In this document: positions 1,349-1,866 of the stretch, piece after piece
How positions within the stretch are numbered: the stretch's first letter is position 1
How the letters are laid out: the number at the start of each line of letters is the position of its first letter
Virus record (IMG/VR): IMGVR_UViG_3300021379_000274
Span: 1-21,966 of that record
Length of the DNA: 21,966 bases
Strand: one strand, 5' to 3'
Source: a virus
Notes under the pieces: generated by a model
Seen by the model: the letters and a program-made list of their open reading frames with translations, nothing else
Databases searched by the model: none
Told to the model about the DNA's origin: nothing
Made by a program: the position numbers and the translations under genes

Positions 1349-1378
1349 AATAAATCTCCTTTTAGTTTCTATCGTTTC

Positions 1379-1398
1379 ATACACAGTCTTTTGTGTAT
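1379..1398. promoter_or_regulatory. Operator-like inverted repeat upstream of the 177-aa gene
   Basis: ATACACA (1379-1385) and TGTGTAT (1392-1398) form a perfect seven-base inverted repeat around a six-base spacer. It lies 31 bases upstream of the minus-strand start at 1348. A GATAAT box on the minus strand (plus 1403-1408) could be a -10 element, which would put the repeat at the transcript start, either as an operator or a 5' hairpin. No good -35 is visible, so the promoter part is weak. Confidence 0.35.
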
Positions 1399-1423
1399 AA
1401 GGATTATCAAGGCTAACGAATCT

Positions 1424-1517
1424 GATTAATGCAGGGATCTCTAGACCAGCCGCGCTGGCGAACGGCTCGTAACGTCATCTTGTATGACGTAACGAACGGA
1501 TCGTCCTTGCATTAATC
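1424..1517 (+). other. Large hairpin with two nested hairpins
   Basis: GATTAATGCAGGGAT (1424-1438) pairs with GTCCTTGCATTAATC (1503-1517) over 15 positions, two of them G-U pairs in a plus-strand RNA. The same positions would be A-C mismatches in a minus-strand RNA. Inside are CCAGC-CGC-GCTGG (1446-1458) and ACGTCAT-CTTGT-ATGACGT (1472-1490). The latter extends by CGT/ACG past one A-A mismatch. This would fold as a three-way junction, and the G-U pairs favour a rightward transcript. Confidence 0.5.
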
Positions 1518-1576
1518 TGATACGTAAGCCCAACTGGAAGTTATCATTAGAAGTCATGTGTGTGAGAGATAGATGC

Positions 1577-1720
1577 ATGATCACTGAGTGTGTCTATCCC
1601 CTGACACTGTAGCTCACTACGGTGGCCGATGGGACAAACGATGCTTGCCCAAGCAAGATCGTCACCCCATCGAGCCGCCCAAGCTAGATATAGATGGGAT
1701 AGACCCATCGAAGGGATCAT
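1577..1720 (+). ncRNA. Candidate structured RNA element (branched fold), function unknown
   Basis: A closed set of helices can be drawn. ATGATC (1577-1582) pairs with GATCAT (1715-1720), and GTCTATCCC (1592-1600) with GGGATAGAC (1696-1704). Inside, CACTGTAG (1605-1612) pairs with CTACGGTG (1617-1624) including one U-G pair. A long arm follows, in which CGATGGG (1627-1633) pairs with CCCATCG (1666-1672), ACGAT with ATCGT and CTTGC with GCAAG over a CCAA loop. The U-G pair again fits a plus-strand RNA. A second CCCATCG (1704-1710) and another GATGGG (1693-1698) allow competing helices. I know no family that matches. It could be a leader RNA, a free small RNA, or protein-binding DNA repeats. Confidence 0.35.
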
Positions 1721-1721
1721 T

Positions 1722-1795
1722 GTGTCTGCACTCCTTAGCGAGTGCAGAGTGTGCAGACACTTGGTAAATTAGGTGTCAATCACCTAATTGACCAA
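1722..1795 (+). other. Mutually exclusive hairpins followed by a long hairpin
   Basis: TCTGCACTC (1725-1733) can pair with GAGTGCAGA (1740-1748) over a six-base loop. Alternatively GTGTCTGCAC (1722-1731) can pair with GTGCAGACAC (1751-1760). Both stems are perfect, and they exclude each other. Next, TTGGTAAATTAGGTG (1761-1775) pairs with CACCTAATTGACCAA (1781-1795) with a single mismatch over a five-base loop. No T-run follows any of these stems, so they are not ordinary terminators. Switch-like control of the leader is an inference. Confidence 0.5.
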
Positions 1796-1804
1796 AGAAC
1801 CCAA

Positions 1805-1823
1805 CGTCACAATAAATGTGACG
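1805..1823. other. Short perfect hairpin
   Basis: CGTCACA (1805-1811) and TGTGACG (1817-1823) are perfectly complementary across ATAAA. The element lies just upstream of the candidate late promoter and could be an operator or part of the structured leader. Confidence 0.5.
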
Positions 1824-1830
1824 CTACGTA

Positions 1831-1866
1831 ACAGCTTGACAGCTGTACCAGTTTTGGTGTCGTAAT
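1831..1866 (+). promoter_or_regulatory. Candidate sigma70-type promoter for the late operon, overlapped by a palindrome
   Basis: TTGACA (1836-1841) is a perfect consensus -35. A partial -10, CGTAAT (1861-1866), lies 19 bases downstream, longer than the usual 17. The -35 is buried in ACAGCT-TGAC-AGCTGT (1831-1846), which could be a repressor or activator site. Transcription would then begin near the G-rich tract before terS. The weak -10 keeps confidence low. Confidence 0.3.

Follow-up and report, generated by a model that had tools for sequence, protein, structure and literature searches.

A candidate structured RNA family upstream of the late promoter of uncultured marine phages

Between the two divergent gene blocks of this virus contig lies a stretch filled with inverted repeats, which raises the question of whether it specifies a structured RNA and, if so, what such an RNA would do. 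The window, by which we mean the whole analysed contig of 21,966 bases, carries leftward genes at positions 46-1384 and a rightward late block that begins with the terminase small subunit gene terS (1906-2283, + strand; PHROG 2538, E 1.6e-15; Pfam Terminase_2, E 4.8e-9), followed by TerL, a head-tail adaptor (portal-type) and capsid genes. The noncoding stretch sits at the divergence of leftward early and rightward late genes in a common marine phage group. GC skew flips sign at the structured element; gene orientation also switches GC skew. A dedicated search found no tRNA or tmRNA in the window.

We consider it likely that positions ~1409-1720, or to ~1797 with accessory hairpins, encode a rightward structured noncoding RNA of a family outside Rfam, just upstream of the late promoter. 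Comparison among relatives shows a discrete module with a covarying conserved fold, a rightward strand and a fixed place relative to that promoter; transcription and function of the RNA are predicted. The family would add a structured RNA class without an Rfam relative to very common uncultured marine phages, at the point of the early/late switch. With a covariance model, an invariant linker and a fixed promoter module in hand, the RNA is directly testable.

Limits and folding of the noncoding module

Open reading frames in 1400-1800 are limited to overlapping short ones of at most 59 aa, none of them convincing, in agreement with the original observation that the region holds no convincing gene. 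Protein coding was rejected because no ORF is conserved and the frames are broken by short indels between relatives.

Close relatives were collected via TerS and via a rare stem, 1626-1661. Against L005, L274, L276 and L278, positions 1405-1797 (+ strand), which hold the whole element with its accessory hairpins, are 86-94% identical by segment, whereas the leftward gene is at chance level (47-51%) and the sequence beyond terS likewise. Since this identity is kept between unrelated flanks, the module is discrete and sharp-edged, with a left edge at ~1405 and a right edge at ~1797; the promoter region beyond has 51-80% identity across relatives. The drop at both edges replaces the extent of 1424-1846 first proposed. 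The element thus comprises a core of ~310 nt and up to ~390 nt with accessory hairpins.

The + strand of 1400-1905 folds at -197.4 kcal/mol against a mean of -149.6 kcal/mol for dinucleotide shuffles (z -6.6, 0/100), so that the predicted excess stability over shuffled controls is present. The - strand reaches z -8.3 (0/100 dinucleotide shuffles), and for the core at 1409-1726 the values are z -6.6 (+) and -5.3 (-). The strands cannot be told apart by folding energy alone, but they can by wobble asymmetry across relatives.

Architecture, covariation and strand

The core (~1411-1720) consists of a three-way-junction domain, an invariant linker region and an irregular rod of ~145 nt. Domain 1 (1411-1530, +) was defined by the minimum-energy fold, covariation over 22 sequences and group alignments, and its stem P1 (1411-1437/1504-1530) closes a junction of P2 and P3. 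The repeat originally seen at 1424/1517 is part of this longer 27-nt arm pair, which is 85% complementary. P2 is a hairpin, CCAGC-NNN-GCTGG (1446-1458, +), with two-sided changes at two of its five pairs and the form CCGAC/GTCGG in group D, and P3 is a long hairpin (1459-1503, +) with a cap at 1472-1478/1484-1490 and two-sided changes at 10 of 17 pairs. The linker GCCCAACTGGAAGTTA (1528-1543, +) is identical in 25/25 aligned members and forms a mini-hairpin, AACU-GGA-AGUU; in the distant member L229, which stands before another promoter class, the hairpin reads AUCU-GGA-AGAU, a compensatory change. A second linker, TGTGTGTGA..GATAGAT.CAT (1557-1578, +), is conserved in members.

Domain 2, the rod (1577-1720, +), includes stems at 1592-1600/1696-1704, 1610-1614/1682-1686 and 1627-1633/1666-1672, is capped by a stem near 1638-1662 and terminates in a stem of the AGCUUUG..CAAAGU type. 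Groups A, C, D and E share this architecture with unrelated, hardly alignable sequence. The rod carries an inserted hairpin in L305 and an insertion of ~56 nt in L295, both typical of RNA. Two accessory hairpins follow (1722-1760 and 1761-1795; 1722-1795, +), with compensatory differences among relatives and possibly the 3' end of the RNA; they are absent from L316 and are therefore dispensable.

All arms of the inverted repeats that were said to fill the region are present in the sequence, and 1446/1458, 1472/1490, 1592/1704 and 1627/1672 coincide with stems of the minimum-energy fold. The hairpin 1605/1624 is probably a wrong pairing, as relatives favour 1610-1614 (UAGCU) with 1682-1686 (AGCUA), which also appears in the minimum-energy fold, and 1805/1823 lies outside the RNA, in the promoter/operator module.

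In an alignment of 22 sequences and 49 domain 1 pairs (A4), 92.6% of cells are paired, and 19/49 pairs have two-sided changes (109 two-sided cells versus 38 after shuffling). The covariation score is 0.328 compared with 0.161 for shuffled alignments (0/500) and at most 0.070 for slid versions. The shuffled control does not take out the relatedness of the sequences, but the slid control preserves it. Group-wise alignments give 13 covarying pairs for domain 1 in group A and 4, 6, 2 and 11 for domain 2 within groups A, C, D and E, respectively; pair counts are inflated by sequence kinship. Compensatory changes in relatives, which had been proposed as a check, are thus in excess of both shuffled and slid controls, as befits a structured noncoding RNA. 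Stems are replaced completely between lineages while the fold stays.

Within groups, the pairs that are predicted from both strands include 18 with G-U and one with A-C in the + reading (binomial p 8e-5), which extends across relatives the earlier claim that the structures favour a rightward RNA. With the covariance model R1, the window reaches 185 bits on the + strand versus 24 bits on the - strand; since the model was built from + strands including the window, this shows orientation and is not independent support. A strand-neutral set of Watson-Crick-column pairs, which included spurious pairs, had no strand preference (8 versus 6 pairs). The wobble bias argues that the + strand acts single-stranded, most simply as RNA; single-stranded DNA would give an equal bias.

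The same asymmetry bears on whether the complement might instead be carried, as a long regulated leader, on a transcript of the leftward gene from a TGTCAA box (TTGACA on the - strand). This box lies at a fixed distance of 60-62 nt from the rightward TTGACA, the - strand also folds well (z -8.3), and a hairpin at 1379-1398 directly precedes the leftward ribosome site. However, the wobble pairs favour + by 18:1, the RNA is conserved where the leftward gene is unrelated, and a leftward promoter at TGTCAA was rejected because no conserved -10 follows it. We judge a leftward 5' UTR very improbable. The 1379-1398 hairpin (-; ATACACA/TGTGTAT, read by eye) lies between the RNA and the leftward gene, whose probable start is the ATG at 1348; its form recurs in nearly all members, even where the leftward gene differs, and it may be a leftward 5'-UTR element.

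Two further features were noted on this side of the locus. In the window (1351-1403, -) and in L177, L274 and L310 a hairpin may mask the ribosome site of the leftward mRNA, its arms in L177 being TCCTATAT/ATATAGGA; it is possibly a separate regulatory element. At 728-765, between leftward genes, a hairpin GTGACCATGC-CCAGC-NNN-GCTGG-ATAGCATGGCAC is conserved in the window and in L002, L003, L276, L278, L316 and L327, and a T-rich stretch follows it on the + strand.

The RNA family and the late promoter

Scanning 2.9 million viral contigs with the 16-mer GCCCAACTGGAAGTTA, alone and with the start of the second linker, yielded a family of ~28 distinct members on 56 contigs. Distant loci, found with a profile search, have wholly different stems and an intact GCCCAACTGGAAGTTA. 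A scan with the second linker only returned 15 stretches, all 15 of which also have the first linker and were already members; thus, the two linkers travel together. The linker pattern has no match in GTDB bacterial genomes, and no DNA similar to the RNA occurs in 50,697 phage records, where the sole similar-DNA match is to the terS gene of Pelagibacter phage Hodr. For the window and 35 relative loci, Rfam 15 gave no covariance-model match at the gathering score, consistent with the original prediction of a new RNA, and a permissive scan of four loci gave a single sub-threshold match to an unrelated family. The element is not described in the literature searched. Large structured phage RNAs are an already known kind; the marine family is new in being outside Rfam and in its distinct size, fold and fixed tie to the late promoter.

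That promoter is predicted from a consensus of 152 distinct elements, which comprises TTGACA, a weak -10-like GTGYTAnnAAT and two G-runs of equal length; TTGAC lies 30-32 nt before the first G-run in 150/152. In the window it occupies 1836-1866 (+), with TTGACA at 1836-1841 and the -10-like GTGTCGTAAT at 1857-1866, and the double G-run GGGGGGAGAGAGGGAGAGGGGGG (1867-1889, +) falls at the expected transcription start. This exact 23-mer occurs in at least 120 viral stretches. The G-runs vary as 5/5, 6/6, 7/7 and 8/8, equal within each phage, with a variable spacer. One promoter class is accompanied by the palindrome GTGACGNNACGTMAC and by a TGTCAA box 60-62 nt upstream; the class consensus corresponds in the window to an operator-like near-palindrome GTGACGCTACGTAAC (1818-1832, no strand assigned). 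The box (1774-1779 in the window, likewise without strand) is present at 45/99 sites, 60-62 nt from TTGACA in 36/45 and 51 nt in 3/45, against a background of 2% per 115-nt window. The whole promoter module spans 1774-1889. Hodr has TTGACA-N17-TATACT at the corresponding place, without G-runs.

All 26 distinct members with enough downstream sequence have the terS promoter (TTGACA/G-run) on the same strand as the RNA, 265-446 nt further downstream. The original prediction of a leader of the late operon does not fit this order: the conserved promoter module is 3' of the RNA and 5' of terS, so late mRNA starting from the promoter at 1836-1889 would exclude the RNA, which is neither downstream of the late promoter nor inside its transcript. 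The RNA would therefore be transcribed on its own or form the 5' end portion of a transcript that crosses the G-runs.

The promoter/G-run module is conserved far more widely than the RNA, the linker being absent at 84/103 G-run sites. Strong structure upstream is not a general rule among relatives: z is below -3 on + at only 40% of 93 sites (last 250 nt). Some linker-free sites (L044, L053, L081, L105, L115, L160, L191, L015) carry another strongly folded element upstream of the G-run promoter, here called type II, with a closing stem and two hairpins, one short (ACGCC/GGCG) and one long (GCAGTTCGCAA/TTGCGAACTG), a layout that resembles domain 1. Merging type II with the family was rejected, as the domain 1 covariance model did not reach the type II sites. 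The occurrence of this other three-way-like element suggests that what counts may be the presence of a structured RNA at that site and not one particular sequence.

Possible roles of the RNA

Several features of the locus recall the geometry of ColE1 RNA II: (i) early and late genes diverge here, (ii) GC skew changes, (iii) the early genes scanned are of a recombination type (RusA, YqaJ/RecE exonuclease, Erf and SSB-like proteins), and (iv) template C-runs lie downstream. ColE1 has no initiator of its own and uses a noncoding RNA begun ~550 nt upstream, with a G-rich stretch essential for R-loop formation (PMC5043065, PMC6317783). The marine locus likewise has a noncoding RNA (~1409-1720) read toward G-runs (1867-1889) on the RNA-like strand, an order repeated in members. 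Among the proteins scanned, part of the gene set of three ~33-kb relatives in which many small proteins are unassigned, neither an initiator nor a DNA or RNA polymerase was seen. The relative MEP301 has been reported to lack both polymerases (PMC8024684).

By this analogy, our leading mechanism, offered tentatively, is that the RNA serves as a primer or regulator like RNA II of ColE1, with an R-loop forming at the G-runs. Host RNA polymerase would start the RNA near 1409, the RNA would fold while emerging from the polymerase, and the fold, acting in cis, would govern whether transcription entering the G-runs (C-runs in the template, ~460 nt downstream of the start) leaves a persistent RNA:DNA hybrid. 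Host enzymes would then extend the hybrid as a replication primer, as RNA II is in ColE1 plasmids. Action in cis would explain the fixed position together with freedom of sequence under a constrained shape. Such a role would answer how phages without a recognised polymerase begin DNA synthesis.

Several observations count against the primer. No clear promoter (-35/-10) was found before P1. A separate promoter 31 nt upstream serves the G-runs, and in group E a GC-rich hairpin resembling a terminator separates the RNA from the promoter. The main objection is the wide occurrence of G-runs without the RNA: most relatives' G-runs lack the linker, so that the G-runs must be able to do their work, whatever it is, in the absence of the RNA. 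Known traits of the ColE1 system also include a promoter for the RNA, an antisense RNA I and processing by RNase H; the marine locus, for its part, has a second promoter-type site before the G-runs. We consider unlikely the more specific proposal of a phage origin resembling those of ColE1 and mitochondrial OriH, in which the structured RNA, acting in cis, brings about an R-loop at the double G-run; if it were true, a phage without recognised replication enzymes would prime its genome by host transcription, with the early-to-late switch at the same site.

Two alternatives rank close behind the primer mechanism, late-transcription control and action in trans. In the former, which is possible, the RNA would be the 5' part of read-through into terS and would modify RNA polymerase or a terminator in cis, timing late expression on top of the TTGACA promoter. 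The HK022 put RNA, a cis-acting element of the nascent transcript with ~70 nt and two hairpins, and the lambda late leader offer comparisons: both are structured RNAs with which a phage transcription unit begins, and the parallel lies in possible control of late genes. Compared by architecture only, the marine RNA differs in being ~310 nt long, far bigger than put, with two domains, and in lying upstream of the late promoter. The position upstream of the late block is fixed in all members, the group E hairpin resembles a terminator, in group A an alternative hairpin, GATGGG-ATAGA-CCCATC, competes with rod pairing, and the phages appear to depend on host RNA polymerase (PMC8024684). The strong conserved promoter between RNA and terS argues otherwise, since most late mRNA would lack the RNA, and no U-tract terminator was found on the + strand of the intergenic region of the window. 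If the RNA does act on transcription, it would show how late genes are timed with a host polymerase.

A discrete module of ~310-390 nt with a complex two-domain fold, an invariant linker and optional rod insertions (L295, L305) is also what would be expected of an RNA with partners. A trans-acting RNA that ends at the accessory hairpins and works like GOLLD/ROOL or 6S RNA, whether as a decoy, a sponge or a multimeric particle, is nevertheless somewhat doubtful, as 26/26 usable members stand beside the late promoter, never elsewhere, and the Rfam searches matched neither GOLLD, ROOL and 6S nor any other family. GOLLD and ROOL are large, elaborate phage noncoding RNAs of ~650-800+ nt, often near tRNA islands, with a conserved fold and a function that is not established (PMC12286853). 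The marine RNA shares with them its kind and differs in its size of ~310-390 nt, its tie to the late promoter, a window without tRNA and the lack of a model match.

Because single-stranded DNA also tolerates G-T pairs, the hairpins might act as DNA, in a packaging site or a single-stranded initiation site. Such an element would adjoin terS, many contigs end near the G-runs, and 11/80 loci have their start in the ~125 nt that precede terS. Yet the contig ends are spread over ~200 nt with no single position, a protein-binding site would not be expected to have its stems so heavily replaced, and the G-U excess speaks against a duplex cruciform; we regard a DNA-level element as improbable. For the packaging link originally suggested, adjacency to terS is the only point in favour. 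The phi29 pRNA is likewise a phage-encoded structured RNA near packaging genes; phi29 is not known to have a TerS/TerL terminase, whereas the marine phage has both TerS and TerL, and its RNA has no Rfam match.

The G-runs have further features of their own. The element could form a G-quadruplex or R-loop, and its exact 23 nt also occur in MAG contigs L335-L338, assigned to Opitutae, Rhodobacterales, Euryarchaeota and Symploca, which are perhaps binned phage contigs. Many IMG/VR contigs (L006, L012, L026, L028, L029, L036, L060 and others) end within ~200 nt of the G-runs. A cos site there was rejected, the ends being too scattered; they probably reflect an effect of the G-runs on sequencing or assembly and are possibly virion ends. 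One of these contigs, L029, starts with about 50 C.
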